Virus record (IMG/VR): IMGVR_UViG_3300045974_000425
Coordinates: 1 to 20,616 of that record
Length of the DNA: 20,616 nt
Reading direction: 5' to 3' (one strand)
Origin: a virus
The position numbers and the translations under genes are program-made. The notes beneath the pieces are model-generated. The model ran no database searches and was not told the origin of the DNA. It saw only the letters and a list, made by a program, of their open reading frames with translations. Below, one piece after another: positions 99-20,106 of this stretch. The stretch's first letter is position 1, and every line of letters starts with the position of its first letter.

Positions 99-436
99 CG
101 GGGTACTGGGACATCGTGATCGTCCTCGTCATCGCCGGGGCCATGCTCTCGATCCTCGACTGGCGTATCAACCGGGCGTTCATCCAGCACGAGAAGCGCG
201 AAGCCCAGATGGTCGCGGAGGTGTCGCTCTCCTCTGATGCCGCCCTTGCCCTGGTGCGTGAGGGCCAGCGGCACATCCGCGAGATCGAAAAGGTTTCGAC
301 GCTCCACGGGATCGCCGTCCAGAACCTCTCCGACGAGGTGCGGATGCACGACAAGCGCCTGGGAGCGGTCGAGGAACGGATCATGCGGGCGGCCCTGACC
401 GTCCCGCACCAACACCGCAGGGAGAACGACCCGTGA
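95..436 (+). CDS. Small membrane-anchored coiled-coil protein upstream of the endolysin
   Basis: A 113-residue protein. Residues 6-22 form one hydrophobic segment (IVIVLVIAGAMLSIL) after a short N-terminus, followed by about 85 charged residues predicted to be helical or coiled-coil, ending in a basic tail. One N-terminal anchor with a long helical domain is the topology of inner-membrane spanins (Rz-like), and the gene directly precedes the endolysin with a 4-base GTGA overlap. It lacks the two or three membrane segments of most holins. The GTG start at 95 overlaps the upstream stop, which fixes the start. A spanin role is inference from topology and position; no family was recognised. Confidence 0.75.
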   Translation: MTGYWDIVIVLVIAGAMLSILDWRINRAFIQHEKREAQMVAEVSLSSDAALALVREGQRHIREIEKVSTLHGIAVQNLSDEVRMHDKRLGAVEERIMRAALTVPHQHRRENDP

Positions 437-864
437 CGCTCCCCGACCGCTCGATGCTGAAGCTCGCAGGCGTTCACCCAGACCTCGTCATGGTCATCGT
501 CCGCGCCTCCGAGATGACCTCGCAACCCTTCATCGTCACCGAAGGGCTGCGCACGAAGGAGCGCCAGATCGAACTCGTGCGCGAGGGCAAGAGCAGGACG
601 CTCAACTCTCGCCACCTTCATGGCTTGGCCGTCGATGTCGGGATCTGCCTCCCGGACGGCGGCATCACCTGGGCGTTCAACGAGTACAAGTTCCTGGCCT
701 CGACGGTGAAGGCCGCGGCCGTGGAGTTGGCGATCCCGATCCTCTGGGGCGGGGAAGCGTTCGGCCCCGGCTTCCGGGACGGCGTCCACTGGGAACTGGA
801 CCGTCGGTTTTATCCAGATCCAGTTCCCGACATCACGCAGCGCGATCCGACGACGGAGGCATGA
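433..864 (+). CDS. Endolysin, M15/VanY-type zinc peptidase
   Basis: A 143-residue single-domain peptidase of the M15_4 type (VanY or L-alanyl-D-glutamate endopeptidase), which cuts peptidoglycan cross-bridges at lysis. The zinc-site motif is visible as SRHLHGLAVD at residues 59-68, giving His61 and Asp68 as ligands. The second motif, GVHWEL, gives His119 as the third ligand, with Glu121 nearby. The length matches phage peptidases of this family. There is no signal peptide, so it should need a holin or similar for release. GTG at 433 overlaps the previous stop (GTGA) and has an AGGGAG ribosome site at 419-424. The last 32 bases overlap the convergent HNH gene on the other strand. Confidence 0.93.
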   Translation: MTLPDRSMLKLAGVHPDLVMVIVRASEMTSQPFIVTEGLRTKERQIELVREGKSRTLNSRHLHGLAVDVGICLPDGGITWAFNEYKFLASTVKAAAVELAIPILWGGEAFGPGFRDGVHWELDRRFYPDPVPDITQRDPTTEA

Positions 865-3230: not shown

Positions 3231-3511
3231 TGCTCATCACGCTCCTGGTGGCCGTCGTCGTCGCCGCCATCGTCTACTGGATCATCACGCTCATCCCCCT
3301 GCCGCAGCCCTTCAAGAACATCATCCTGGCGATCCTTGGGCTGATCCTCGTGCTGTGGATTCTCCAGACGACCGGGGTGTTCGGTGGCGACCCCTGGATC
3401 GGTGGGCCTCGCCTCCGCTGACCGGGGGCATGACCGAAGCTCCAAGCCGCAGTAGAAACAGGACCGTCGCCCGTCCTCGTGGCAGAGCCACGCACGGTGG
3501 GGGCAGATCAC
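3179..3511 (-). CDS. Small zinc-ribbon protein with doubtful C-terminus
   Basis: GTG 3511 overlaps the previous stop (GTGA) and follows a GGGAG ribosome site, so initiation looks real. The N-terminal 30 residues carry a zinc-knuckle pattern: Cys-Pro-His, then LCHEDGRRSCFYCG, then a further Cys. The frame then stays open for about 80 more codons to 3179, running antisense to both small plus-strand genes. That part is very acidic (DDGGDDDGHQERDEHH) and reads like the mirror of a membrane protein. Either the tail is real and the genes overlap convergently, or it is tolerated read-on. It is the last gene of the leftward operon. Function unknown. Confidence 0.5.
   Translation of the reverse strand: MICPHRAWLCHEDGRRSCFYCGLELRSCPRSAEARPTDPGVATEHPGRLENPQHEDQPKDRQDDVLEGLRQGDERDDPVDDGGDDDGHQERDEHHRSFGFATTPCAWRCA
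3230..3421 (+). CDS. Thivi_2564-like small membrane protein
   Basis: A 63-residue protein with two hydrophobic spans, about residues 2-24 (LITLLVAVVVAAIVYWIITL) and 31-50 (NIILAILGLILVLWILQ), separated by a short Pro-containing turn (IPLPQPFK). The pattern resembles the small Thivi_2564 family membrane proteins found in phages and bacteria (from memory). A holin role is possible. It overlaps the upstream stop (TGATG) and has AAGGAG just before the start. Its entire length lies antisense to the open 3' part of the minus-strand frame ending at 3179. Confidence 0.75.
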   Translation: MLITLLVAVVVAAIVYWIITLIPLPQPFKNIILAILGLILVLWILQTTGVFGGDPWIGGPRLR

Positions 3512-4284
3512 GTCCCGCTCCCGCCGCAGGAGGGGCACTTGAGGAGAATGTCGTGCCCAGGGATGAAGCGCCCATCCATCCCCGCCCCCCCGCACTCCCC
3601 GCACTTCGGCGAGAGGGGGGGCGGGGGCTGGCTACTCGGCGCGGGGAGGCCAGCTCCAATGACCGGGGCGGGGCAACTCGGAGTAGGGGCACCGCTCGTG
3701 GAAGAACAGGCCGGTTGGGTTGACGGCGCAGAGGCCAACGGTCCCGTCGTCGCTGACGACCTGGGTGATGATGGCGGCGCGGGGGAGCGGCTTGAACTCG
3801 CCTCCGGGGGTTCCGTAGGAGTGGTAGTGGACGATGCGACCGACGCTGGGCTTCGACATGGTGTCTCCTGTGCTGCGGTTGGTACTGCGTTGAAAGACCC
3901 CTCTCGCGGCCCGCTCGGCACCGGAACGGGATGCGCAAGAGCGCGCATCGCGTCGATGATCCCCAACCGCGTCCCGGTAGGGAAGTCCAGCAGCAGTTGC
4001 ACGCACATCGCGACACCTTCGCGGATGCCTACCTCGCGCCCCTCGGCGTGCGCCTGGGTGCGAACAGCGGCCATCCTGCGCTTGAACACGGACTCGGGGT
4101 CGCCGTAGGGCTGCATGTCGCCCTGCGGAGCGGTGGGGGCGGGGGAGAGGGCGTCATTGGCCTGTCGGATTCTGATGCTCAGGTGCGGGAGCTTCCGCCC
4201 CTCGTCCTCCTCGGCCCAGACAAGCCGCTCCGCTTCTTCGATGAGGTTCCGCAGGGACTTCTCGATCCTCTCTGCTCGGCTCAC
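3508..4284 (-). CDS. Helical protein with a C-terminal DnaJ-like zinc ribbon, containing a nested gene
   Basis: 258 residues in one uninterrupted frame. Residues 1-140 are charged and helical, beginning [17 protein letters not shown], with normal codon use. Residues about 141-218 are a Ser/Pro/Thr/Ala-rich stretch that coincides with the gene at 3632-3859 in another frame. The end has two knuckles, CGECGGAG and CPSCGGSG, about 15 residues apart, a DnaJ-type zinc-ribbon pattern. GTG 4284 overlaps the upstream HNH stop (GTGA) after a GGGGGAGGGGG ribosome site. No stop separates the halves, so the ribosome should make the full protein. A frameshift or assembly error is the alternative. Function unknown. 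Confidence 0.6.
3632..3859 (-). CDS. Small conserved-looking phage protein, nested out of frame
   Basis: 75 residues beginning [16 protein letters not shown] and ending [10 protein letters not shown]. This is the general form of a small phage protein seen widely (an N-terminal 'G.IVHY', a central 'AAIIT.V', a Trp-rich end), recognised from memory. ATG 3859 has a good AGGAGA ribosome site, and the codons end almost always in G or C, as in real genes of this phage. It lies wholly inside the 3508-4284 frame but in a different phase. Function is unknown. The nesting is the notable point. Confidence 0.8.
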   Translation of the reverse strand: MSKPSVGRIVHYHSYGTPGGEFKPLPRAAIITQVVSDDGTVGLCAVNPTGLFFHERCPYSELPRPGHWSWPPRAE

Positions 4285-4964
4285 TTGTCCCCCTCCCCCG
4301 GCTCGCGGGCCAGGGCGTCGCGGTTCTTGGCTCGACTCTCGGGGCGCTTCGGCTTCCACTTGTCGTAGTGGGCGCGCTGGCACTCACGGCACGCCCTCCA
4401 GCCCTGCGGCCTCACCAAGAGGTTCGCACCGGACAGCGGATGACCACGCACGCAATGCGTCTTGCGGCTTCCGGTGTGTCGGCCCTTCTTCACCATGATC
4501 CGAATCGGTCCTTGCCCCTTGGATCTCCGATATCGAGTGTCGGAACATCGGTGACATTCTCCGTTCCGACGCATCCCTGAATGGGCAACACCGCCGCATG
4601 TAACGCAAACGGTTGGCCCCTTCCTCGCCCACGGCCTTGGCCCGGTTTTCCCGCGGTACTTCTCCGGGTGCCGCTGAGAGTTGAGACGCCCCTTCTTCGC
4701 CGCGTCTTGCAGGTTGTCCTTGGCGGTGCCGACAAACAAATGCTCCGGGTTCACGCAGTTCGGATTGTCGCAGCGATGGCAAACGTACAGGCCATCGGGG
4801 ACGGGGCCGCGAGACATCGCCCATGAAGCTCGGTGCGCGAATCCGTACTTCCCGCTCCACCATGCGCGACCGTAGCCCTTCTTGTCCTTGCATCCCGTCC
4901 ACAGCCAGCACCCCGTCACCGGATCTGGATTGGTTCGGGAAAGAAACCGTTCGGTCGGAGTCAT
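4281..4964 (-). CDS. HNH endonuclease (HNH_3 type) with extra zinc ribbons
   Basis: 227 residues. The nuclease core is at about 19-82: CWLWTG, HRASW, then [17 protein letters not shown] (His63, Cys65, Cys70, Asn72, His75). Two extra zinc-binding parts follow: CVTC (120-123) with CHRC (137-140), and CVRGH (171-175) with CREC (192-195). A basic tail ends the protein. These are probably DNA-binding ribbons. ATG 4964 overlaps the upstream stop (ATGA), and its own stop overlaps the next GTG, so unlike a freshly inserted homing gene it is fully integrated into the operon. Its core is clearly related to the HNH at 833-1330. A homing or packaging-related role is possible. Confidence 0.88.
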
Positions 4965-5323
4965 CCGAGCATCTCCTTTTCGGCGGCGACCTTTTCCCGG
5001 CAGGGCTTGCAATAACCGCGATGCGAGTTGTTCCTCCGCTTCGACGGCCAGTCCCATGTGCGCGTGACGCCCCCGCAGACGACGCACGCCGCGGTCCTCC
5101 ACCCGAGCCGCACGCAAGCGGGGCACACCCTGGTTCCGGGGAGCGGCTTGCGCCAGGCGATACCGCCGGACGGCAGGTTGATCTTCACCGGCACCAGCGG
5201 TTCGGCGCAGACGTGACAGCACGTCGCGAGGTCGAACTCTCCCGGGTCGGGCAACCGCCACGCCCCGGACTCCATCTGCTCCTCGGCCAGGTAGACCGCT
5301 CGCGTCTCGGCGTCGAGCATCAT
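4961..5323 (-). CDS. Zinc-binding protein with four Cys pairs
   Basis: 120 residues with the pairs CHVC, CPAC, CVVC and CKPC in order. The first two bracket a loop ([19 protein letters not shown]) and the last two another, giving two zinc ribbons. Between them lies a Trp-containing basic segment ([11 protein letters not shown]), and the N-terminus is acidic and helical ([18 protein letters not shown]). ATG 5323 is chosen over GTG 5344 because it overlaps the upstream stop (GTATGATG). It may bind nucleic acid or a partner protein; no family recognised. It lies between the PP-loop enzyme and the HNH gene. Confidence 0.8.
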
Positions 5324-6165
5324 ACGCCGCACATCCCTTCGCACTCAGCGCCGAACAGGTTTAGCTGACGGGTGTCGGTCTTGGATGCGGCGGCGAAGTC
5401 GGCGTCGCGTATGGAGACGAGCCCATCCCAGAGATAGGGAGTCCCCCGGATCACGGCGTCGTGCTCGCGATATGCGGTTTGCAGATCCTCCTCAAACCTA
5501 ACGGCCCTGGCGAAGTCGGCTGGCTCCTCGGTCTTCAGCCGCAGCCACTCGTCGGCGCTGTGATACGGGCAGAACACGCACGCCGACCGCGGAGGCTTCG
5601 GGTATCCGTTCCGCTCCATCCATGCGAGGCACGCCGCCCGAGACATCCGCGCCTCGATGAGCGGGTATCGGTTCTCCATGTACGGGAACATCGAATCCTT
5701 CATCCGATGCGCCTCGTCGGTGCTGATGCCGAGCCACATCATCGCCGCTGCCTTCTTCGGGAGCCGATGCCCCTTCTTCACGAGTCGCTTCACCTCGCGG
5801 AAGATGGGGGTCAGCTTGTAGTCGCGGGTACACTTGCGGATGGTTGGCCCTCGCGAGCCATCTTCCGCCTTCACCCAGAACGGCACCGAATTGCTGACGT
5901 AGTTCTTGCCGGACACCTTACTGATGCGGCGGCGCAGAGAGTCGGCCTCAAGGTTCCCCTGGGTGACGCGCACGACCGGGAAATGGGGGGCCAATTCCTT
6001 TTCGAGCCAAGCGAGATAGCGGTAGACGCTTTCGGGCTCGGCCTGAACGTCGGCGAAGATGGCGAGGCTCGGCATCGGAGTGATCTCGCCCTTCGCGGCC
6101 ATGAGCGCCATCGTGGACGACTGCACCCCCGCGCCCAGGCTGATGACGTGGATCGGGTCCGTCAC
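5320..6165 (-). CDS. PP-loop ATPase, PAPS reductase-like family
   Basis: 281 residues of the adenine-nucleotide alpha-hydrolase fold. The PP-loop is at residues 9-17 (SLGAGVQSS), followed by the strand motif [11 protein letters not shown]. Cys112 (RKCTRDYK) and Cys196/Cys199 (CVFCPYH) are conserved-type cysteines of this phage family and could hold a metal or Fe-S centre (inference). The GIST-DEA-RMK segment at about 147-156 is typical. True PAPS reductases act in sulfate assimilation; phage members more likely modify nucleic acid or a nucleotide, but no reaction can be assigned here. GTG 6165 overlaps the upstream stop (GTGA). Identification of the family is firm; the function is open. Confidence 0.88.
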
Positions 6166-6341: not shown

Positions 6342-7217
6342 CTACTTCCCGCCCTTCAGCACGTCGCGGCGAGCCCGGTACGCGTCCATGACCTCGGCGT
6401 CGAGCGGAGGCGGCAGCTTCTTCACGTCGCCCAGCGTCAGCACGAGCTGGGACAGCGAGGTGCAGGCGGCGATGCGGTCCCGGAGCGCCTGGTCTACGGC
6501 GCGCTCGTCGTCGTCGGGGTCGGGCACGACCTCGGGTGGCGGCGCGTCCATCGCGGGCGGGTCGATGCCGGGGGAGAGCACCTCGACGGGGGGCGGGGCC
6601 GGGGGAAGCGCCTCGACGCGGGGGGCGGGAGCGGACTGGACGTGGGCTTGCCGGGCCGGAAGGGCCTCGCGCTCCTCGGGCATCTCCTCCGCGATGTAGA
6701 GCCCCGCGCTGTCCTCGGGGAACGCCTTGCGGATGGCGAGCGCCTCGGCGCACTTCGCCAGCATGAGGCGTGGCATCCGCGCCCAGAAGGAGGTGATGCT
6801 CCCGTCCTTCTTCTTCTGGATGAACTCCGACTCGTAGGCCACGCCGACCGCGGCACGCGTCGGGCTCCAGTCCTTGCGGTAGACCCGGACCTTGCAGAAC
6901 TTCCCGGCGTCGTCGGATCCGTACTCGGGCTCGTCCTGGCCGTCGTACTTGCCCGTCCGCTCGGCGATGGAGCGCAGCCCGTCGATGCTCGTCTGGATGG
7001 CCCAGACATCCTCCCGCTTCTGCATGTCCCACCGCTTGACGAAGTAGACCTGGCGGGAGAACGGGTCGAGCCGACGGCGCTTCACGATCTCGAGGAGGAC
7101 CGCCGCCTCCGACTTGGACGCCCCGCCCATGAACTGGGTGAGGATCATCCGCTCCTGCTCGGCGGTGAAGAAGGGCTGGATGGTGTCGGACTGGATGGTC
7201 TGGATGGCGGTGGTCAC
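6342..7217 (-). CDS. bet: Bet/RecT-type single-strand annealing protein
   Basis: 291 residues. The N-terminal 190 residues match the phage Bet family: the segment SEAAVLLEIVKRRRLDPFSRQVYFV, the core ASIDGLRSIAERT-like stretch (here SIDGLRSIAERTGKYDG), and the closing FWARMPRLMLAKCAEALAIRKAFPE. Residues 200-245 are a Pro-rich linker, and the last 45 form a separate helical tail. Bet anneals complementary strands during recombination and replication and usually works with an exonuclease, which is not seen in the window. GTG 7217 overlaps the stop of the Gam/Gp157-like gene (GTGA), a red-type pairing. Family call is confident; the tail is unassigned. Confidence 0.93.
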   Translation of the reverse strand: MTTAIQTIQSDTIQPFFTAEQERMILTQFMGGASKSEAAVLLEIVKRRRLDPFSRQVYFVKRWDMQKREDVWAIQTSIDGLRSIAERTGKYDGQDEPEYGSDDAGKFCKVRVYRKDWSPTRAAVGVAYESEFIQKKKDGSITSFWARMPRLMLAKCAEALAIRKAFPEDSAGLYIAEEMPEEREALPARQAHVQSAPAPRVEALPPAPPPVEVLSPGIDPPAMDAPPPEVVPDPDDDERAVDQALRDRIAACTSLSQLVLTLGDVKKLPPPLDAEVMDAYRARRDVLKGGK

Positions 7218-7792
7218 GGGGTCCTCGGGGGAAGGGTGGGAAGCGGGGACGGCTCGACGGTCATCTCGTCCTTCTCGGACTCGAAACTGGTCCCGGGCAA
7301 AAGGACCCCGTCCTTCTCGAAGCGGGCCTGGATGGCCTTGATCTCGGGCTCGTACTTCACGCGCACGAGCGCGGGGTCGCCGTCCTTGGTGAGGAAGTCC
7401 ATGAGGGCGGCGCGGTCCTCGATGACCAGGCGGGCCGACTTCTTCCGCCACGCGACTTTTCCGGCCAGGAACTCGCGGCTGCGCTTCTTCCCCAGGAGGA
7501 GCACATCCTTGTCGCGGGCCGCTGCCTCGGCGATGCGCCCCAGGAAGAAGGTGATGCGGGGCTCCTCGCGCGCCACCAGCTCGGCCAGTCGGGCGTCGAT
7601 GGCGGCGTGGGCCTGGCGGGCCGCTTCCTGCCACGAGGCGACCGCGGCCTGCGACTCGCCAGCGCAGCGGAAGGCGAACTCGTAGCCGGAGAGGTCGAGC
7701 GGCTTGATGCCCCACGCGCCCTCTCGGGCGAGCGCGTCGGGGTCCACGGGTTCCTGGGTTGCGAGAGCGGCTTCGATGATTGGGAGGGTCAT
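7214..7792 (-). CDS. Gam/Gp157-like protein (possible host nuclease inhibitor)
   Basis: 192 residues. The centre is a long helical stretch (about 45-95), followed by a strand/loop part (GKVAWRKKSARLVIEDRAALMDFL) and the ending VKYEPEIKAIQARFEKDGVLLPG. This layout resembles both Mu-type Gam, which protects DNA ends, and Siphovirus Gp157. I cannot separate them by eye. Its place directly before bet, with a 4-base overlap, favours a recombination role such as inhibiting host exonucleases. The C-terminus is acidic/Pro-rich. ATG 7792 overlaps the upstream stop (ATGA). Confidence 0.7.
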   Translation of the reverse strand: MTLPIIEAALATQEPVDPDALAREGAWGIKPLDLSGYEFAFRCAGESQAAVASWQEAARQAHAAIDARLAELVAREEPRITFFLGRIAEAAARDKDVLLLGKKRSREFLAGKVAWRKKSARLVIEDRAALMDFLTKDGDPALVRVKYEPEIKAIQARFEKDGVLLPGTSFESEKDEMTVEPSPLPTLPPRTP

Positions 7793-8866: not shown

Positions 8867-9193
8867 ATGAGCCACCAACCGTCCCTGTTCTCCTTCGACT
8901 CGACCGGCGCCGCGGTCGCGCCTCAAGCCCCGGAGCAGACCAGGGAGCTCGCCCGGGTGACCGGCCGCATCGCGGAGTCGGTCCTGCTCTTCCTGCGGCG
9001 CCGCCAGGGGCAGACGTTCCGAGCGGCCGACCTCGCAGCCTTCGTGATGGCCGACTGCGGGGGAGCGCCAGCCAGCGCGGACCGGGTGATGAGGCAACTC
9101 CGAGCGCAGGGCTACATCGACGTCCAGGTCGTGGATCGTGCAGGCAGTCTGTACCGGGTGGCGGCGGCGGGGCAGGGCGATGCCGGTACCTGA
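8867..9193 (+). CDS. Winged-helix-like small DNA-binding protein
   Basis: 108 residues. Residues about 30-100 look like a winged helix: ELARVTGRIAESVLLFLRRR, then the helix pair FRAADLAAFVMADCG and ASADRVMRQLRAQGYI, then the wing VQVVDRAGSLYRV. The first 28 residues are a polar, flexible leader. AAGGA precedes ATG 8867. The end overlaps the replication initiator start by 14 bases. It may be an early regulator or a replication accessory; no named family was recognised. Confidence 0.75.
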   Translation: MSHQPSLFSFDSTGAAVAPQAPEQTRELARVTGRIAESVLLFLRRRQGQTFRAADLAAFVMADCGGAPASADRVMRQLRAQGYIDVQVVDRAGSLYRVAAAGQGDAGT

Positions 9194-9995
9194 GCGGGAG
9201 GGGGGGTTCATCGTCCTGCACCGCCGGCTCCTGTCCTCGGCCGTCTGGGGGCTCCCGGCGACCCAGCGCCAGGTCTGGGTCGAACTCCTGTTCGCGGCCA
9301 ACTGGCGCGACACCGAGGCCTACGTCTCGGGCAAGTCCGTAACCGTCCCCCGTGGGTCCGCGCTCATCACCGGACGCACCCTGGCAGCTCGAGCCGGGGT
9401 GTCCCGGGGTGTCGTTGAGCGGGCGATGAGGGCCTTTCACGCCCTCGGCATGGTGACGTTCACCGACCTCGGTCCAGGGGCTCGTGGCGGGACAACCGTG
9501 CGCCTAGTCAACGTCTTGAATTACCGGAAGTACCAGGACGTGCCCGAGGACGAAGCGGGACAACCTCAAGACCAACCCCGGGACCAACCACGGGACAACC
9601 CCGGGGCCGATCAGAACAAGGGAACAAAGAAACAAGAGAACAAGAAAGAGACTACGCCGCCCGAGGCGGCGCTCCCCGAGGGGACAGACTGGTCGGGGCT
9701 CCTCGCTGCCATGTCCAAGGCCTGGGCCACGAAGTACGACGGCAAGAAACTCGTCCTCCTCGGTAAGGACTTCAAGCCCCTCCGCTCCCTGGTGTGCAGC
9801 CTGACCGATGTCGAGGTCTGGCGCCGCTGGGAGATCTACCTCGCCAACGACGACAAGTTCTACACCGGCCACCCCGTCGCCTTGTTCTGCTCACAGGTCA
9901 ACCGCTTCGTCGTCGCCCCCGCGTCCGACCGCTTCCGCGAACCGTGGGAGGGCGCGTCACCCGTTAGCCCGCAGGACTGGGAGAAAATGCAATGA
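9180..9995 (+). CDS. Replication initiator (lambda O / DnaD-like organisation)
   Basis: 271 residues. The N-terminal part (about 10-115) is a winged-helix replication domain, with signatures FIVLHRRLL, ALITGRTLAARAGVSRGVVERAM and TVRLVNVLNYRKYQ. Residues about 122-165 are a polar, repetitive linker (Gln/Asp/Pro, then Lys/Asn/Glu). The C-terminal 95 residues are a separate helical domain that may recruit a helicase or its loader. No helicase gene is visible, so it probably uses the host's. The linker DNA carries direct repeats and an A-rich tract, a likely origin. ATG 9180 is preferred over 9138. The stop overlaps the next ATG. Confidence 0.8.
   Translation: MPVPEREGGFIVLHRRLLSSAVWGLPATQRQVWVELLFAANWRDTEAYVSGKSVTVPRGSALITGRTLAARAGVSRGVVERAMRAFHALGMVTFTDLGPGARGGTTVRLVNVLNYRKYQDVPEDEAGQPQDQPRDQPRDNPGADQNKGTKKQENKKETTPPEAALPEGTDWSGLLAAMSKAWATKYDGKKLVLLGKDFKPLRSLVCSLTDVEVWRRWEIYLANDDKFYTGHPVALFCSQVNRFVVAPASDRFREPWEGASPVSPQDWEKMQ
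9557..9653 (+). other. Putative replication origin inside the initiator gene
   Basis: Four direct repeats with the core GGGAC(C)AACC begin near 9557, 9569, 9580 and 9592, spaced 11-12 bases. They are followed by a purine-rich, AT-richer tract at 9614-9653 made of four near-identical 8-base units (GAACAAGG, GAACAAAG, AAACAAGA, GAACAAGA). Iterons next to an easily melted tract in the middle of an initiator gene is the layout of the lambda origin in gene O. The repeats are seen directly; origin function is inference. Confidence 0.55.
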
Positions 9996-11462: not shown

Positions 11463-12847
11463 GTCAGGCCGACCTCGTCATCAACTACGATGCGCCGCCC
11501 ACCCTCGGGCGCTTCCTCGGCTCCGACGCTCCCGTTCGCCTGGTCATCGGCCCCGTGGGCAGCGGCAAGTCGAGCGCCTGCGCGATGGAACTACTGCGCC
11601 GCGCCCTGGAGCAGCGCCCGGGACCTGACGGCAAGCGTCGCACCCGGTTCGCCGTCATCCGCAACTCCTATCGCGAGCTCGCCGACACCACGGTGAAGAC
11701 CGTACAGCAATGGCTTCCCGACGACCTCGGCGTCTGGCGCATGGTGGACAACGCCTTCGACCTCTCGTTCAACGACATCGAGTGCGAGATCCTGTTCCGC
11801 GCCCTGGACCGTCCGGCCGACGCGAAGAAGTTGCTCTCGCTCGAGCTCACCGGGGCGTACATCAACGAGGCGAAGGAAATCCCTCGCGCCGTCTTCGACC
11901 TGCTCCAGACCCGCATCGGTCGCTACCCCGCGGTGAAGGACGGCGGATGCACATGGTCCGGCGTCTGGATGGACTCCAACCCGCCCGACACCGACGACTA
12001 CCTCTACAAGATCTTCGAGGAGCAGCGGCCCGAGGGCTTCGAGCTCTACCGACAGCCGGGTGGGCGCAGTCCCGAAGCGGAGAACGTCTCCAACCTGCCA
12101 GCGGACTACTACGCCCGCATCGCTCGAGGGAAGAACCCGGACTGGGTGAAGGTCTACGTCGATGGTGAGTATGGCTTCGTCCAGGACGGCCGACCCATCT
12201 ACCCGGAGTACAAGGACGCGCTCCACTTCGACGCGACCGTCCAGCCTATTCCGCGGTCGGACATCACGCTCGGCATGGACTTCGGGTTGACGCCAGCGGC
12301 GGTGCTCTGCCAGCGCGACGCGGACGGGCAACTCCAGGTCTTCGACGAACTCGTCTCCGAGGACATGGGCGCCGTCGCCTTCGCCCGGGAACTCGCGTCG
12401 AAGCTGAAGGGCGAATACTACGGCCGAGGCGTGACGGGATGGGGCGACCCTGCCGGTGAGCAGCGCGCCCAGACCGACGAGCGCACACCCTTCGACGTCG
12501 TCCTGGCCGCTGGGTTGCCCGTCTCTCCTGCCCCGACGAACGATTACACGCTGCGGCGCGAGGCCGTCGCCGGGATGCTCTTGAGGCTGACGATGACCGG
12601 GCGACCAGCTCTCGTCATCGGCCCGAAGTGCGCCAATCTCCGCAAGGCGATGGCCGGCGGCTACTGCTACAAGCGCCTTCAGATCTCCGGGGATGAACGC
12701 TTCCACGATAAACCCGACAAGGGGCGCTACTCCCACGTCGCCGAGGCTCTTCAGTACGCTGCCGTGGGTCTCGGCGAGGATCGACGCGCCGTCGATGGTT
12801 CGCGCTCGTCCATGTCGTTCACCGTTCGCAGGAGTCTTCGCACATGA
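11459..12847 (+). CDS. terL: Terminase large subunit
   Basis: 462 residues. The ATPase part has Walker A at 31-39 (GPVGSGKSS) and a Walker B-type stretch at about 130-138 (LTGAYINEA, with Glu137 catalytic). The nuclease half starts with LGMDFG (Asp274), has another acid in VFDELV (about 297), and GWGDPAG (Asp330). The end carries RYSHVAEALQYAAVG, the usual C-terminal motif. It drives DNA into the procapsid through the portal and cuts it. GTG 11459 overlaps terS, and the stop overlaps the portal start. Confidence 0.95.
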   Translation: MSQADLVINYDAPPTLGRFLGSDAPVRLVIGPVGSGKSSACAMELLRRALEQRPGPDGKRRTRFAVIRNSYRELADTTVKTVQQWLPDDLGVWRMVDNAFDLSFNDIECEILFRALDRPADAKKLLSLELTGAYINEAKEIPRAVFDLLQTRIGRYPAVKDGGCTWSGVWMDSNPPDTDDYLYKIFEEQRPEGFELYRQPGGRSPEAENVSNLPADYYARIARGKNPDWVKVYVDGEYGFVQDGRPIYPEYKDALHFDATVQPIPRSDITLGMDFGLTPAAVLCQRDADGQLQVFDELVSEDMGAVAFARELASKLKGEYYGRGVTGWGDPAGEQRAQTDERTPFDVVLAAGLPVSPAPTNDYTLRREAVAGMLLRLTMTGRPALVIGPKCANLRKAMAGGYCYKRLQISGDERFHDKPDKGRYSHVAEALQYAAVGLGEDRRAVDGSRSSMSFTVRRSLRT

Positions 12848-14568
12848 CCGTGAATACGATGGACCTGAAGCGGCGCCTGGAGATGCAGATCGCCAACCGC
12901 TCCACCCTCGACGCGACCTTCGATCAGGTGGACAAGTGGATTGGTCCTCACTCCGGCGGCGTGAATCCGAACACCGGACCCCAGGGCGAGTCCTCCGTCG
13001 ACTGGCAGTCGAACACCGACGTCTGGGATTCGACTGGCTCGGCGGGAGCGGACAAACTCATCGCGTTCCTCGCGTCATCCATCACGAACCAGGCCGTGCG
13101 CTGGATGCGCCGCACCTGGCTCGACAAGAAGCTCCAGGAGGACACGCGAGCGAACGCATGGCTCGACGATTCCACCGACGTCATGTTCGCGGAGCTCGAG
13201 CGGTCTGACTTCTACTCGGAGATCGGCAAGTTCTACGGCGACTTCGTCCGCTACAACACCGCCTGCTTCGTCGCCGAAGCGAAGAAGGATGCCATCGAGC
13301 GCAACGAGTGGGAGGGGCTCGACTTCACCGCGCCGCCCATCCGGGAGTGCTACCACGAGCCGGACTTCGAGGGACGGGTCCTGCGCTACTGGCGCGTGCT
13401 CAACTGGACGGCGGGCCAGATCCTCTCGAAGTGGCCGGACGGCCCGGTGCCGGAGAAGGTCCGCACTCGCGCTGCCCAGCCGGAAGGCTCCACCGAACGC
13501 TTCAAGGTCGCCTACGCGATCTGGGTGCGCGAGGAGTACGTCGGCCAGGAGGAGAAGTATCCCTTGGCGCCCGACCTCCGGCCGGTGGGGTGCTGCTACT
13601 TCCTCGTCGAGACGGGCGAGATCATAGGCGAGGAGACGGGCCTCTATGAGATGCCCGTCTACATCGTGCCCTGGGCGTCGGCCGCGGGATCCGACTGGGG
13701 ATACGGCCCCGGCATCCGATGCCTGCCCGACGTCCGCACGCTCAACGACTCGGTCCAGACCCAGCGGATGGCGGCGCGCAAGGCGGTTGACCCGCCGTTC
13801 ACCGCCACCGAGCGCGGGCTCATGTCGAACGTGGACATGAAGTCGGGCGGGATGACGATGGTCCGGGAGCACGACGCGCTGAAGCCCTTCGAGAGCGGCT
13901 CGAAGTACGCGGTCGGCGAGCACGACATCACAGACCAGCGCGCCCAGGTCCGGGCTCACTTCTGGGTGGACGAGCTCACCCTGAAGATGTCTCCACAGAT
14001 GACGGCGACCGAGGTGAACGCTCGCCTAGACGCGATGAACAAGCTCTTCGGGCCGACGCTCGCGAACCTGCAGTCGCTCGCGCTCGACCCGCTCGTGGAG
14101 CTCGTGGGCAGGATGCTCTACCGGGCGGGCAAGTTCGACAAGATGCCGCCCTCCGTGGCGCAATCGGTCAAGGAAGCGGGCGGCGAGTTCCGCATCCAGT
14201 ACGAAGGGCCGCTCTCTCGGGCGCAGCGCATCGACGAGGTGGCGAGCATCGAGCGCCTTGGCTCTGCCGCCGCCGCGTTCAAGAAGATGGAGTTCAAGGA
14301 CATCGACCTCGTCTTCGATGCCCAGCAAGCGTTGCGGGAGATCGCGAAGCGCCTCGGTACGCCGGCCGTCTGCCTGCGCTCTGTCGCTGACGTGAAGGCG
14401 GAGTCCGAGAAGCAGAAGAAGCTCCAGGCCGCGGCGATGGCTGCGGAGGTTGCTCGCGCACAGGGCGAGGCGGTGCAGCAACAGGCCGACGCCCAGGCGG
14501 CGGTTCAGTCTACTCCCGCAAGCCCGGTCCCAATGCTGACGCCGGAGGCCGGCGGGGGGTTGATGTGA
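12844..14568 (+). CDS. Portal (head-to-tail connector), podovirus type
   Basis: 574 residues, matching the podovirus head-tail connector family in size and order. It starts with a helical region (LKRRLEMQIANRSTLD), then WIGPHSGG and a Trp-containing early section (WDSTGSAGADKLIAFLAS), then the central PVYIVPWASAAGSDWGYGPG and LNDSVQTQRMAARKAVDPPF segments. The last 60 residues are a Gln/Ala-rich coiled coil (SEKQKKLQAAAMAAEVARAQ). It forms the dodecameric ring through which DNA passes. ATG 12844 overlaps the terL stop (ATGA), and its stop overlaps the next GTG. Confidence 0.92.
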   Translation: MTVNTMDLKRRLEMQIANRSTLDATFDQVDKWIGPHSGGVNPNTGPQGESSVDWQSNTDVWDSTGSAGADKLIAFLASSITNQAVRWMRRTWLDKKLQEDTRANAWLDDSTDVMFAELERSDFYSEIGKFYGDFVRYNTACFVAEAKKDAIERNEWEGLDFTAPPIRECYHEPDFEGRVLRYWRVLNWTAGQILSKWPDGPVPEKVRTRAAQPEGSTERFKVAYAIWVREEYVGQEEKYPLAPDLRPVGCCYFLVETGEIIGEETGLYEMPVYIVPWASAAGSDWGYGPGIRCLPDVRTLNDSVQTQRMAARKAVDPPFTATERGLMSNVDMKSGGMTMVREHDALKPFESGSKYAVGEHDITDQRAQVRAHFWVDELTLKMSPQMTATEVNARLDAMNKLFGPTLANLQSLALDPLVELVGRMLYRAGKFDKMPPSVAQSVKEAGGEFRIQYEGPLSRAQRIDEVASIERLGSAAAAFKKMEFKDIDLVFDAQQALREIAKRLGTPAVCLRSVADVKAESEKQKKLQAAAMAAEVARAQGEAVQQQADAQAAVQSTPASPVPMLTPEAGGGLM

Positions 14569-14792
14569 ACGACGCCCAGATCAAAGCGTTGGAGCAGAAG
14601 GCTCGCGCGTTCGCGTCGGTCCTCTCAACGCCAGCGGGCAAGGGTCTCATGGCCGCGCTCGAGCAGACCTTCGTCTGGGGCGACCTCCAGGCGAAGGACG
14701 ATCGAGAGATGAACTTCCGCCTGGGACAGCGCGACGTCGTGATCTATCTGCGAGGGATGTTGAATCTTTCCAACGAAGGGAAAACGCCATGA
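14565..14792 (+). CDS. Bbp19-like small protein
   Basis: 75 residues, helical, beginning MNDAQIKALEQKARAF. The stretch TPAGKGLMAALEQTFVWGD, with a second half MNFRLGQRDVVIYLRGMLNLS, resembles the small protein that follows the portal in Bordetella phage BPP-1 and relatives (Bbp19), as I remember it. Position directly after the portal agrees. Its function in those phages is not known to me. GTG 14565 overlaps the portal stop (GTGA), and its stop overlaps the next ATG. Confidence 0.75.
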   Translation: MNDAQIKALEQKARAFASVLSTPAGKGLMAALEQTFVWGDLQAKDDREMNFRLGQRDVVIYLRGMLNLSNEGKTP

Positions 14793-15262
14793 AGAAGACA
14801 CTCGTCGCGCTGCTCGCCGCCGTACCCCTTCTCGCCTTCGGTTCGGGCAAGGCCGCCACGCTGTCGAACGGCGTGCTGAACACGTTCTTCCGAACCACCG
14901 CATTGTCGGCCCCGGCGAACACCTACGTCGGCCTGCTCTCGACGTGCCCCACGACCGGGAGCGTCGGGACCGAGATCTCCGGGAACGGCTACACCCGGTC
15001 GAGCGCGCTCTCGAAGGCCGACGCGACGTGGACGTACACCGCGGCGACGTTCATCTCCGCATCGACGATCAAGAACACGGCTTCGATCGCGTTCCCCACC
15101 GCGACGACGAACCCGTGGACCGTGAACTGCTTCGGGGTCTGGGACGCGAGCACGGCAGGAAACCTGCTCTACTGGGGGCCGGTGACGGGAGCGCCCGTGA
15201 CGATCAGCGTGGGAGCAACGGCTTCCTTCGCGGCCCTGTCGCTCACGATCACCGAGCAGTAG
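14789..15262 (+). CDS. gp80-like structural-type domain with an N-terminal signal peptide
   Basis: 157 residues. Residues 1-22 are a classic Sec signal peptide: KK, then TLVALLAAVPLLAFG, then GSGKAA as the likely cleavage zone. The rest matches the small phage gp80-like domain: LSNGVLNTFFRTTAL, TYVGLLSTCPTTGSVGTEI, and the closing GVWDASTAGNLLYWGPV and FAALSLTI. In relatives that domain begins the protein. There is no ATG, GTG or TTG near the canonical start, and the ATG at 14789 overlaps the previous stop (ATGA), so the signal is genuine. A virion protein should not be exported, so either the product is secreted or the span serves as an anchor. Confidence 0.82.
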   Translation: MKKTLVALLAAVPLLAFGSGKAATLSNGVLNTFFRTTALSAPANTYVGLLSTCPTTGSVGTEISGNGYTRSSALSKADATWTYTAATFISASTIKNTASIAFPTATTNPWTVNCFGVWDASTAGNLLYWGPVTGAPVTISVGATASFAALSLTITEQ

Positions 15263-15264
15263 CC

Positions 15265-17550
15265 ATGCGAGCCCCCATCGCGCTCGCCATGCTGGCGGCG
15301 TGCTCGTCGGCGTGGGCCGATGGGCCGCAGACGTTCAGGCCACGGTTCACCCCAGGTCCTGGGACCTACGCCGTTCCGCAGATGGTGCGGGTCTGGTCCC
15401 CGACCGCGGGATCCGACATCTACTGCACGACGGACGGAAGCACGCCGACCATCTTCTCGACGAGGTACACGGCTCCGCTCTCGGTGGTAACGACCGCCAC
15501 GATCCGCTGCGTCGCCAAGGCCTGGCGCCGGCCCGTGTCGGACATCGGAGCGGCGAGTTACCTCATCCAGGCGACGCCATCTCCGATCTACTTGGTGGGC
15601 AACGCGACAGCGGTGGGGCGCGGCGCAATGGGGACGGCGACGCTCCAGGTGATCGGTCAGGCACTCCTCGCTGCGTCGGCCGGTGGGTCGTCTTCGGCTG
15701 GCGCCGTGTCGCTCGAGATCGCCGGGGCAGCGGATGTGCTCGTCGGAACCGCGGCAGGGCAGGGGTCGGGGATCGCGTCGATGACGGTGGCGGGACAGCC
15801 GTACCTCGTGGACATCGGGACGAACTTGAACGCGGTGGTGGACTACGACCCGGAGCGGCTGAACGCTGACCTCGTCTGGGGAGCTCGCCCCTGGGCGGTC
15901 GGTGACGGGAACGGCGCGACGGCTGCGAACTGGGTCGGGACCTACGCCGGCACGAGCCTGGACTCTCGAGGCTGGCCGATCGTTCCGACGAACACCGTCT
16001 TCGGTGCGGTCTTCGAGCAAAGCCCGTGGGTGGGGGTCTACAAGCTCTCGTTCAAGAACAAGGGCGGCACGACTGGAGATACCGTCTCGTCCTATTCCGG
16101 GAACATCACGCTGACGAACCGGGCGCACGACGCCGGGACCAACGTCACGACCTACGATGTGACCGTTCCGTCCTACGCCTCGCAGTTCATCTGGCTGCGC
16201 TGGGCGGGCTCCACCGGGGGCATCGAGGACGTGTCCCTGATGCGCCCGCTCAAGGACGCGAGCGGGTGGCACGCGGTGGGGACGCCGCTCTCGGACCACA
16301 TCATCGACCGGCTCGCGCACTTCTCGACCATCCGAACCATGATGACGACCTCGGGCTACTCCGGGCGCACCACGGGCCTCGACTCGGCGTGGGCCGACCG
16401 CGTGAAGCCGTGGGGGCCGCAGACCAGGACCGCGCTGGCTGGCGTGAACGGTGGCGTTGCCTGGGAAAACATCATCGCGATGGCGAACCAGGCGCAGAAG
16501 GACCTCTGGATCACGATCCCCTTCAACGCGACCGACAACTACATCCTGAACCTCGCGCAACTGATCCTGTACGGGAGCAATGGCACCACGCCCTACTCGT
16601 CGGTCCAGGGATCCCCGGTCTTCGCCCCCCTCGCGTCCAACCTCAAGGTCTACGTCGAGCACGGGAACGAGATCTGGAACAGCTACCCGCATTGGTCGGG
16701 GACGAACTACAACGCCAACCAGGCCGAGATCGCTGCCGGCGACCCGAACCGCACGACGTACTCGTCCGGGAGCGCCTGGGAGTACTCCTACCGGCGCGTT
16801 GGCTGGCTTGCCGTTCGGCAGTCGCTCATCTTCCGGGGCGTGTTCGGGGACGCTGCGATGATGACAAGGGTTCGCCCGGTCATGGCGACCCAGCACGCGA
16901 GCTACAGCACCACGACTCAGCCGATGGACTACATCGCCGCGGTCTGGGGGCCGTCGAGCTCCTACGACACGATCAACGGCGTCGCCAACCCGAAGCAGTC
17001 CACGTCCTACTACCTGTACGCGCTGGCGACCGCGCCCTACGTGCCGGATGGGAACGACGCGATCACCGACACGAGCAGCGCCGCCGGGATGCTGACCGGG
17101 ACGCTCGCGAACCTGGCGCTGACGACGGCCGGGAAGGTGCTTCCGGCGATGACGTGGCAGGCGGGCAAGGCAACCGCGGCCGGGATCGCCTATCTCGCTT
17201 ATGAGGGCGGGAACAACCTCATCCCGACGCTGATGCCCGGGGGAGCGACGGCAGGGGCCATCCAGAACGCGAAGGACGCGAACTACAGCTCGACGCTCGG
17301 CGCCGCGATGGGCGCGTCCATCACGGGCGGGCTCCCCGACGCGACCCAGTCCGGGAAGGTGTACGGGACGCTATTCAAGGAGTGGCGGGCCCGCGGTGGA
17401 GGTCTGTTCATGCACTACACGCTGGCCTATTCGGCAGGGGTAAACGGGACGTGGGGGCTCGGCCCTCCCGCCTCCGACAGCGGATCCGATCCTCGCGTCG
17501 AGACTGGACCGAAGTGGGACGCCATCAAGGCGTTCACGACGACACGGTGA
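15265..17550 (+). CDS. Exported TIM-barrel glycosidase-like protein with chitobiase-type domain
   Basis: 761 residues. The N-terminus has an export signal, readable as a lipoprotein (LAAC, Cys13) or as type I (SSAWA-D). Residues about 30-92 are a chitobiase-type CHB_HEX_C domain (YCTTDGSTPT). The rest resembles bacterial secreted proteins often annotated cellulose-binding or GH-A-like: VYVEHGNEIWN (Asn468-Glu469, likely acid/base), then LAYEGGNNL (Glu647, likely nucleophile), and a closing RARGGGLFMHYTLAYS. The probable substrate is an extracellular polysaccharide, but this is inference. It follows the gp80-like gene by two bases with a weak ribosome site. Such a large exported enzyme is odd inside a head operon; a virion-bound depolymerase is the alternative. 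Confidence 0.85.
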   Translation: MRAPIALAMLAACSSAWADGPQTFRPRFTPGPGTYAVPQMVRVWSPTAGSDIYCTTDGSTPTIFSTRYTAPLSVVTTATIRCVAKAWRRPVSDIGAASYLIQATPSPIYLVGNATAVGRGAMGTATLQVIGQALLAASAGGSSSAGAVSLEIAGAADVLVGTAAGQGSGIASMTVAGQPYLVDIGTNLNAVVDYDPERLNADLVWGARPWAVGDGNGATAANWVGTYAGTSLDSRGWPIVPTNTVFGAVFEQSPWVGVYKLSFKNKGGTTGDTVSSYSGNITLTNRAHDAGTNVTTYDVTVPSYASQFIWLRWAGSTGGIEDVSLMRPLKDASGWHAVGTPLSDHIIDRLAHFSTIRTMMTTSGYSGRTTGLDSAWADRVKPWGPQTRTALAGVNGGVAWENIIAMANQAQKDLWITIPFNATDNYILNLAQLILYGSNGTTPYSSVQGSPVFAPLASNLKVYVEHGNEIWNSYPHWSGTNYNANQAEIAAGDPNRTTYSSGSAWEYSYRRVGWLAVRQSLIFRGVFGDAAMMTRVRPVMATQHASYSTTTQPMDYIAAVWGPSSSYDTINGVANPKQSTSYYLYALATAPYVPDGNDAITDTSSAAGMLTGTLANLALTTAGKVLPAMTWQAGKATAAGIAYLAYEGGNNLIPTLMPGGATAGAIQNAKDANYSSTLGAAMGASITGGLPDATQSGKVYGTLFKEWRARGGGLFMHYTLAYSAGVNGTWGLGPPASDSGSDPRVETGPKWDAIKAFTTTR

Positions 17551-17597: not shown

Positions 17598-18221
17598 ATG
17601 GCTGACGGACAGGACTGGAAGGAATCGCTCCCGGAAGACCTCCGGGGTGAGGTGGCGCTGAAGGACATCCCGGACGTCGCGACGCTCGCGAAGGTGTTCC
17701 GGGACACGAAGGCGTTCGTGGGCAACTCCATTCGCAAGCCGGGCGCGAACGCGACACCCGAGGAGAAGGCAGAGTTCCTATCCCGGGTCGCCGAGGTGAT
17801 GCCCGAGATCGCGGAGATGCGGAAGCAAGTGGAGGCGGGGCAGGCCGAAAGGACGAGGACCGCCGAGGCGCTCGCTGCAGCCGACACCACGCTTCGTCGC
17901 GAGTGGGGCATCGACTACGCCGACAAGGTGAAGTCGGCGAAGGCCGCGGCGAAGGCGATGGGAGTACCGGAGGGCGTACTCGACTCCATGCCGCCGGCTC
18001 AACTCAAGGTCTGGGCAGCGACCGCTGCTCGCGTGACCGGGCCGGGGAACGAGGTCGGGGCGCAGGGCGCCAGCGGCGGCAACGCGAGGATGACGCCCGC
18101 CGAGGCGCAGCGTCGGCAGGCAGAGATCCGCTCCAAGATCTGGGACACGAAGGACCCCGGGCTCGTGAAGTCGATGTCGGCGGAACTCTTCGAGCTCCAG
18201 AAGTACGCGACCCCGGGTTGA
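17598..18221 (+). CDS. Scaffold-like protein
   Basis: 207 residues, acidic to mixed and largely helical. It begins MADGQDWKESLPEDLRGEV, then a 'DVATLAKVFRDTKAFVGNSIR' type segment, and a long coiled-coil centre (AEVMPEIAEMRKQVEAGQAERTRTAEAL). The C-terminus is helical with a Gly-rich linker (GPGNEVGAQGASGGN). Position directly before the major capsid gene is the standard place for a scaffolding protein, and the start matches many phage scaffold N-termini. ATG 17598 follows GGGGAC, a fair ribosome site. A 16-codon frame at 17555-17605 overlaps the start and may be chance. Confidence 0.75.
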   Translation: MADGQDWKESLPEDLRGEVALKDIPDVATLAKVFRDTKAFVGNSIRKPGANATPEEKAEFLSRVAEVMPEIAEMRKQVEAGQAERTRTAEALAAADTTLRREWGIDYADKVKSAKAAAKAMGVPEGVLDSMPPAQLKVWAATAARVTGPGNEVGAQGASGGNARMTPAEAQRRQAEIRSKIWDTKDPGLVKSMSAELFELQKYATPG

Positions 18222-18409: not shown

Positions 18410-19303
18410 ATGGCCGTCCACGAGATCAGCGACCTCTACATCAAGACGTTCACCGACAACGTCATCATGCTGGCGCAGCAGAAGAAGAGCCGCCTGCGTG
18501 ACACCGTCACCGTCAAGAGCGGCATCGGCGAGCAGCTCCGGTTCCAGACCGTCGCCGCCCGCGCTGCGATGACCAAGCGCACCGCGCAGGGCACGAACGC
18601 CGGCAAGCGCCCCGCGACCGCCTACGTCGACACGGTGTGGGGGAACCGGGTCGTCATCCCGTCGCCCTACACCGCCGCCGACTCCTACGAGTGGGAGGAC
18701 GTCGCCCGCATGATCGGCGATCCGCAGTCCATCCTGACCACGTCGCTCGCGGCCCAGCTTGGCCGCACCTACGACGACGTCATCATCGCCGCGATGTTCG
18801 CCGCCTCGCTCGACGACCTCGGCAACTCCCACGCCCACCTCGCCGCGCAGCAACTCGGTGGCGCGACCACGGCTCCCTCCTTCGACCTCGTCAACGCCGC
18901 TCGCGAGGTTCTCGACGAGACCGACGTGGACCCGGACGAGGAGAAGTTCATGGTCGTCTCCCCGAACTTCATCTCGGCGCTTCTCGGCGACTCGAAGGCG
19001 ACCTCGTTCGACTTCAACAACGGCAAGGCGCTCGCGTCCGGCCAGGTCGTGCAGGGCTGGATGGGCTTCACCTGGAAGGTGACGAACCGGCTGACCACGC
19101 CGGGTGGCACGCCCAAGCAGATCTACGGCGCCGCCTACACCAAGGACGCCATCGGCCTCGGCATCAACGTCGAGGGCAAGGTGGACATCGGCAAGGACCC
19201 GGGCCAGTCGTTCTCGACCACGGTCCAGATCGCTGCCGACTTCGGCGCCGTCCGCATCCAGGACGCTCGCATCCTGCGGCTCCACTACCTCGAGACGAAC
19301 TAG
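18410..19303 (+). CDS. Major capsid protein (Bbp17-like)
   Basis: 297 residues, beginning MAVHEISDLYIKTFTDNVIM. The pattern resembles the phage capsid family of podoviruses such as BPP-1: an N-terminal helix, a Phe-Gln-Thr-containing early strand (LRFQTVAA), YVDTVWGNRVVIPSPYTAADSYEWED in the middle (shown in part), then the long helix LAAQLGRTYDDVIIAAMFAA, and the final strand VRIQDARILRLHYLETN. It is the main shell protein. A strong AGGAG ribosome site precedes ATG 18410, with a hairpin on each side of the gene. Confidence 0.92.
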   Translation: MAVHEISDLYIKTFTDNVIMLAQQKKSRLRDTVTVKSGIGEQLRFQTVAARAAMTKRTAQGTNAGKRPATAYVDTVWGNRVVIPSPYTAADSYEWEDVARMIGDPQSILTTSLAAQLGRTYDDVIIAAMFAASLDDLGNSHAHLAAQQLGGATTAPSFDLVNAAREVLDETDVDPDEEKFMVVSPNFISALLGDSKATSFDFNNGKALASGQVVQGWMGFTWKVTNRLTTPGGTPKQIYGAAYTKDAIGLGINVEGKVDIGKDPGQSFSTTVQIAADFGAVRIQDARILRLHYLETN

Positions 19304-19365: not shown

Positions 19366-20106
19366 ATGGCCGCAGAAATGGTCAACGAAGACTGCATCAA
19401 GTACGCCTCGGAGCGGATGCTCGCTGGCGACGACTGGGCCACCGTCTCGGGCCTAATCGAGATCGCCTACGACGCCGACCCAACGTGGTCGGAGACGTAC
19501 CTCCAGCCCATCGTCCTCGAGCGGGTGGCGGCGATGAAGCGGGACATGTCGCTCGGCGCCACCGACGAGCTCACGGCTCTGCGGGCCGTCGTCATTCCGG
19601 TCTTCACGAGCATCACCCCGGCGACGGGAGACATCGCCGGAGGGGTGACCGCTGTCATCGTCGGCACGGGCTTCTGCCCCGGCGCGACCGTGACCATCGG
19701 TGGACACGCGCAGACGGTGCTCTCCGTCCGGCCCACCGAGATCGCGATTCGCACGGTGGCGCACGCGGCGGCGGCGGCGGCTGCGCTCGTCATCACGAAC
19801 CCAAGCACGAAGGCGGTCACGGCGGCGGCGGCATTCGCCTTCGCCAAGGTGACGCCGGTCTTCACCAGCATCTTCCCGGTTTCCGGGCCGGCGGCTGGCG
19901 GGACCATCTGCAACATCACCGGGACGGACTTCACGCCCGGGATGACTGTCACCATCGGGGGGCACGCCTGCACGGTGCTCTCGCAGGGCGGGACCACGAA
20001 CCTCTGCATCAGGACTCCGGCCCACGCTGCCGGTGCCCTGGACGTCGTCATCACGGCGAAGAACGCCGACGCCGACACCGACACCGAAGGCTTCACCTAC
20101 GTCTGA
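19366..20106 (+). CDS. Head-associated protein with two TIG domains
   Basis: 246 residues. Residues 1-70 are a helical domain (VNEDCIKYASERMLAGDDW ... YLQPIVLERVAA). Two TIG/IPT immunoglobulin-like repeats follow, about 77-155 (PVFTSITPATGDIAGG ... GATVTIGGHAQTVLS) and 163-246 (PVFTSIFPVSGPAAGG ... GMTVTIGGHACTVLS). TIG domains commonly sit on phage surfaces as decorations or head fibres. The helical domain resembles the whole N-terminus of the next gene, so it may be a shared anchor. A GCG repeat run (19764-19783) encodes an Ala stretch. GGGAGG precedes ATG 19366. Confidence 0.85.
   Translation: MAAEMVNEDCIKYASERMLAGDDWATVSGLIEIAYDADPTWSETYLQPIVLERVAAMKRDMSLGATDELTALRAVVIPVFTSITPATGDIAGGVTAVIVGTGFCPGATVTIGGHAQTVLSVRPTEIAIRTVAHAAAAAAALVITNPSTKAVTAAAAFAFAKVTPVFTSIFPVSGPAAGGTICNITGTDFTPGMTVTIGGHACTVLSQGGTTNLCIRTPAHAAGALDVVITAKNADADTDTEGFTYV

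Follow-up and report, generated by a model that had tools for sequence, protein, structure and literature searches.

The question raised by this locus is why a phage would place the genes for two proteins with predicted export signals, one a fibre-type protein and the other a glycosidase-like enzyme, within its head-assembly module. To our knowledge, tailed phages are taken to assemble entirely in the cytoplasm.

The gene pair and its products

The window (the whole stretch of DNA analysed) is a linear, partial viral record of 20,616 bases from a metagenome. The gene order of its head module is TerL, portal, Bbp19, a gp80-like gene (product P0001), a GH-like gene (product P0002), scaffold, major capsid protein and a TIG-domain protein, all in the same direction and some overlapping (Table 1). 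Only 2 bases separate the P0001 and P0002 genes, and a consensus scan of the coding strand found no promoter or terminator of their own near the pair. The tight spacing and overlaps, together with the lack of a nearby promoter, indicate that the two are co-expressed late.

Table 1. Positions of the gene pair, its domains and other features of the window
Feature	Position	Strand	Details
Endolysin	433-864		phrog_465
Gene similar by eye to PAPS-reductase/N-type ATP pyrophosphatase family members	5320-6165	-
Mu Gam-like gene	6342-7792	-	PF07352; adjoins a gene resembling RecT/Bet annealing protein by eye
tRNA-Glu (ARAGORN call)	9403-9481		within same-strand ORF 9180-9995; either may be false
Portal	12844-14568		4-base overlap with Bbp19 gene
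Bbp19-like gene	14565-14792	+	PF25181, E 4e-7; shares 4 bases (ATGA) with gp80-like gene
P0001 gene (gp80-like)	14789-15262	+	ATG start; GAAGGG ribosome site upstream
P0001 predicted signal peptide	14789-14854	+	Sec-type, MKKTLVALLAAVPLLAFGSGKA, cleavage before A; score 11.0
P0001 mature Gp80-type fibre domain	14855-15262	+	Cys53 (14945-14947), Cys114 (15128-15130)
P0002 gene (GH-like)	15265-17550	+	ATG at 15265; 761 aa
P0002 predicted signal peptide	15265-15318	+	MRAPIALAMLAACSSAWA, cleavage before D; score 10.7
P0002 chitobiase/hexosaminidase C-terminal-type domain	15352-15519	+	PF13290 (CHB_HEX_C_1), E 1.4e-14, residues 30-85
P0002 GH-A-like barrel region	15955-17550	+	~residue 231 onward; motifs and low-confidence Foldseek match
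P0002 E469, candidate acid/base	16669-16671	+	motif E-x-GNE-x-WN, N468-E469
P0002 E647, candidate nucleophile	17203-17205	+	motif YEGG
Scaffold gene	17598-18221	+	tblastn/blastp synteny
Major capsid protein	18410-19303	+	PF19821, E 4e-47; bait for finding the clade
TIG-domain protein	19366-20106		3' of the capsid gene

P0001 is 157 aa long and matches Gp80 (PF23140) over residues 23-155 (E 2e-29; profile score 102.9 bits, gathering score 27). The best Foldseek match to its AF2 model (pLDDT 79) is 8jou_a, Fiber I of podophage GP4 (E 2.3e-8, TM 0.79 by target). By profile and predicted fold, P0001 is a Gp80-family tail-fibre protein, with the domain and predicted fold of the gp80 fibre I of Ralstonia phage GP4 (PF23140, PDB 8jou), which is a virion fibre; for the homologue in Sinorhizobium phage phiM5, the annotation records detection in the particle proteome. 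Whereas GP4 gp80 starts at the domain, P0001 adds an N-terminal signal and two cysteines. The domain begins at the protein start in 75/75 viral homologues examined but at residue 23 in P0001; none of the 75 carries a signal peptide, their start codon sitting at the domain, so the P0001 signal is a local addition. Annotation error was considered as its source and rejected, since no alternative start with a ribosome site occurs near the domain start. In another phage, DSL-LC06, genes for glycosyltransferases, a KpsC-like protein and a sialyltransferase lie upstream of the gp80-like gene (L092:1-3670).

The N-terminus of P0002 can be read as a type I signal (AWA-D) or as a lipobox (LAAC at residues 10-13); the former is likelier, because the lipobox reading would leave a signal of 12 residues. 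Pfam gave only CHB_HEX_C_1 and Fn3_assoc for this protein, without any curated glycosidase family, and outside the N-terminal Pfam-matched part there was no PHROG match. The motifs around E469 and E647 align and are conserved in four distant relatives (L077, L085, L078, L088), and the best fold matches of the low-confidence model (pLDDT 45) are to GH51 of clan GH-A (E 9e-5). On the strength of these motifs and of the GH51 match of that low-confidence model, P0002 is likely a glycosidase of GH-A type, with substrate and family not assigned; family assignment from the predicted structure was given up, the model being too poor. P0002 resembles GH51 and clan GH-A glycosidases in the N-E and distal E motifs, with a weak fold match for the putative barrel region, but differs from them in having no Pfam glycosidase family, in its fused chitobiase-type domain and signal, and in its place in a phage head module. 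Neither P0001 nor P0002 has a peptidoglycan hydrolase domain among its Pfam and PHROG matches.

No close relatives of P0002 turned up when viral and genome contigs were scanned with exact peptides, and a degenerate scan (E-[YH]-GNE-x-WN) recovered distant ones on phage contigs. Some of the relatives of its C-terminal region adjoin phage structural genes (L077, L078, L084). Another distant relative, on a phage-like contig (L090:2347-3843, minus strand), has a signal peptide and a PEP-CTERM-like C-terminus (VPEPSGLAAIAVGCCLCRRRR).

Sec signals were scored with a simple home-made scorer, which is crude, and the gene caller was also home-made. Eight E. coli signals used as controls scored 9.7-12.5, a range that includes the scores of P0001 and P0002 (Table 1). 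Scores above 10.5 were reached by 3.9% of 488 called phage genes versus 0.6% of shuffled N-termini. In the cultured phages ZP6, HTVC010P, J2 and phiM5 (136 coding genes scored), no comparable signal-bearing head-module fibre was found, and moderate scores were few. The descriptive claims of an earlier note on this DNA are thus borne out: both reading frames are present between the Bbp19 and scaffold genes (gene calls, Pfam, synteny), the gp80-like protein has a Sec-type signal before a domain that otherwise starts at residue 1, and P0002 has its own signal, in the two readings given above, and is glycosidase-like, with a chitobiase-type domain (E 1e-14) and with Glu469 and Glu647 in aligned, conserved motifs.

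Signal-bearing structural-type proteins in related phages

The nearest relatives by capsid sequence, at 55-60% identity, are L095, L096/L179, L097, L098/L180, L099 and L181. Signal-bearing structural-type proteins occur in the same operon at 5/7 clade loci (window included) versus at most 8/73 more distant ones (p = 9e-4). Three clade members are represented by long contigs. In G002, signal-bearing proteins of 277 and 298 aa follow the capsid gene, and others of 906 and 1067 aa lie further downstream of the fibre gene. G004 encodes a signal-bearing 480-aa protein between Bbp19 and scaffold, with collagen and tail-fibre PHROG matches and a weak signal (score 8.1, no basic n-region), as well as one of 144 aa after the capsid gene. 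In G012, signal-bearing proteins of 137 and 272 aa flank the capsid gene. The 144- and 137-aa proteins of G004 and G012 belong to one family, in which the signal is kept while its letters vary. The slot 3' of the capsid gene that is taken by the TIG-domain protein in the window holds signal-bearing proteins in all three long contigs.

No gp80 or P0002 homologue was found in the clade records, these three contigs included, and in L095, L099 and L100 the scaffold gene lies directly 3' of Bbp19, with no insertion. Searching genomes for prophages of the clade, by capsid alignment, confirmed none. By their sequences, the clade members differ in which signal-bearing genes they carry and have the export-signal habit in common. 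The earlier note had proposed looking for the pair in related phages and had named a lack of signal-bearing homologues as something that would refute its idea. The pair itself is absent, and a lack of signals is what the gp80 homologues display (0/75); the answer to this lies in the other virion-type proteins with signals that the relatives do carry.

The tail fibre of G002 (342 aa) starts with MRRILAVLPTLLLLGTVPSETS, followed by a tail-fibre N-terminal domain, residues 16-128 corresponding to positions 2-117 of phrog_1640 (tail protein). This domain, a homologue of Bbp9 of Bordetella phage BPP-1, shares 50% identity over 117 aa with the G012 fibre, which is signal-less and has the domain from residue 2. 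At the sequence level the G002 fibre is built like P0001, with a signal in front of a virion domain that normally lies at the very N-terminus. It shares with podovirus fibres (BPP-1 Bbp9, phrog_1640) the N-terminal domain, and departs from them by the signal in front and six cysteines behind. No second copy of the attachment domain was found in G002, the signal-bearing copy being the only one detected.

Cysteine parity as a sign of probable export

Cysteines tend to come in pairs in proteins that fold in the oxidising periplasm. In the mature part of the signal-bearing structural-type proteins, the number of cysteines is even and above zero without exception (23/23), compared with an even count in 188 of the 428 signal-less, cysteine-containing genes at the same loci (44%). 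The raw Fisher p of 1e-8 overstates the independence of the proteins, many of the 23 being homologous, and becomes ~6e-4 when they are collapsed to nine families. Signal-bearing proteins of lysis cassettes, such as the 190- and 108-aa gene products of G004, were left out of the count because they resemble holin or spanin parts; of these two, the 108-aa protein has one cysteine and the 190-aa protein none.

Comparisons within families follow the same lines. Several phage lineages have proteins with the NLRDGATGAG domain, the one found in the 144-aa G004 protein, some bearing a signal and others not; the cysteine number is even in 13/13 signal-bearing members versus 1/8 signal-less ones (p = 7e-5). 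Cysteine counts are 2, 4 or 6 in the 13 distinct members with a signal, which use at least two different column pairs, while the eight without a signal have one cysteine in seven cases and two in the other. Among the tail fibres, the signal-less ones of G012 and G004 have three cysteines and one, respectively, and the signal-bearing one of G002 has six. As for gp80, cysteine is absent from 43 of 51 distinct signal-less homologues and occurs once in 7; the two cysteines of P0001 fall at alignment positions where the homologues carry none. Both mature cysteines of P0002, Cys54 and Cys82, lie inside its chitobiase-type domain. These patterns support export independently of the signals, although they too are read from sequence.

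The NLRDGATGAG proteins also extend to other phages. Signal-bearing members are encoded upstream of scaffold-like and capsid-like genes at L265:3881-4333, L269:398-1009 and L270:3740-4351, in L265 and L270 downstream of a portal-like gene; the slot is much like that of the window's pair, while the portal and capsid of these phages differ from those of the window. Longer signal-bearing proteins with 4-6 cysteines and the domain at their end occur in L273 (3431-4354), L283 and L284 (~3450-4366 in the latter two), phage contigs of moderate GC that do not belong to the window's clade.

Probable export and the possible fate of the proteins

Signals, families, operon position, recurrence and cysteine parity are facts at the sequence level. 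From the signal scores, the cysteine parity and the recurrence in relatives, both P0001 and P0002 look exported, as the earlier note had suggested, and we regard their export as likely. We favour an explanation in which export is followed by use as virion-type proteins, and give it as a whole a probability of about 45%. P0001 and P0002 would be late virion-type proteins that have acquired Sec signal peptides and are made alongside the head genes. They would be exported to the periplasm of the presumably Gram-negative host, losing the signal and forming a disulphide bond there. At lysis the periplasmic pool would meet virions leaving the cytoplasm, and the fibre-type proteins might dock onto these progeny from outside; P0002 would cleave surface polysaccharide, on the particle or beside it. 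The absence of a signal from all 75 gp80 homologues counts against this explanation.

Attachment after lysis is a weakly inferred working model, held tentatively. It is favoured for the fibres because several of the proteins fall in virion families, the genes sit in a late operon and, in G002, the only detected fibre keeps its attachment domain. The earlier note preferred free action over fixation to the virion, which the evidence favours no more than attachment: GP4 gp80 is a virion fibre, the phiM5 homologue is found in the particle, and the signal on the only attachment domain detected in G002 is at least as good a sign that the protein attaches once exported. We lean towards attachment to the virion for the fibres, and the glycosidase could be virion-bound or free. 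The literature searched, with partial coverage, gave no precedent for fibre attachment after lysis. A wider generalisation, in which the clade exports fibres, decoration proteins and a depolymerase via Sec, their disulphides form in the periplasm and the virion is finished outside the cytoplasm at lysis, is possible but open to considerable doubt.

The best-surviving alternative, which we also consider doubtful, and slightly more so, is that the exported proteins act as effectors without ever becoming part of the virion, close to what the earlier note proposed: the copy of the fibre would mask or occupy the host receptor and the glycosidase strip surface polysaccharide, which would keep progeny from being trapped on debris or slime. 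The export and cysteine evidence fits this equally, and the GH-like relative at L090 pairs its signal with a PEP-CTERM-like anchor. There is also a parallel in Llp of T5, a disulphide-bonded periplasmic phage protein encoded beside the receptor-binding protein pb5, which shows that phages gain from such a protein (PMC9586334). Llp and Cor of T1/phi80 are superinfection-exclusion lipoproteins, phage-encoded, exported, disulphide-bonded and located beside receptor-binding genes (PMC9586334), and P0001 and P0002 are like them in their predicted export. Llp and Cor are, however, small lipoproteins of another family: P0001 has a fibre domain and a type I signal without cysteine, and P0002 is 761 aa long with an ambiguous lipobox, so neither qualifies as a small lipoprotein. 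Free effectors sit less well with the translational coupling to head genes and the lack of a detected promoter, and the G002 virion would lose this fibre, the signal being on its only detected attachment domain.

It is improbable that the N-termini do not serve export at all, the proteins staying in the cytoplasm and entering virions intact with the N-terminus as an anchor or trimerisation element. The known Gp80 and podovirus fibre homologues, which have no signal and for which cytoplasmic assembly is assumed, would agree with this, but the N-termini have the three-part layout of signals, score like known ones, keep that layout as the letters change, and are accompanied by even cysteine numbers. 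More improbable still is lysogenic-conversion cargo (morons) located in the head module by chance. Exported morons exist, lambda Lom and Bor among them, and integrase-like genes, recognised by eye in G004 and G012, imply that clade members may be temperate; against this, neither promoter nor terminator was found for the genes, they have 4-base overlaps, and several of the families consist of virion fibres. That host genes were joined to a phage contig by misassembly or chimera formation, conceivable for a 20.6-kb linear metagenomic fragment, is largely refuted, since the GC3 values of both genes fall among those of the flanking phage genes, codon score and overlaps agree as well, and genes of the same kind occur in three independent relatives.

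In the literature searched, exported phage proteins were lysis enzymes, spanins and exclusion lipoproteins. One such enzyme, Lys44 of phage fOg44, is a secreted endolysin, produced late and exported before lysis by a genuine Sec signal (PMC6116005). P0001 and P0002 resemble it as late phage proteins with a (predicted) Sec signal; Lys44 is a lysis enzyme, whereas the pair in the window consists of a fibre-type protein and a GH-A-like enzyme. No paper on exported tail fibres or decoration proteins was found, and since literature coverage was partial, this is weak evidence of novelty. What the locus combines is known virion families and a known export route, a combination that we did not find described.

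These results suggest an unrecognised route by which phages bring fibres and enzymes that cut sugars into use. Were export and oxidation the routine first step for fibre and decoration proteins, then either assembly would end outside the cytoplasm or phages would make use of secreted copies of their receptor-binding parts. The mark by which this could be recognised, a signal and even cysteines on a member of a virion family that otherwise has neither, is searchable in all phage genomes. Should completion of the virion outside the cytoplasm prove true, the assembly of tailed phages would be split between two compartments.
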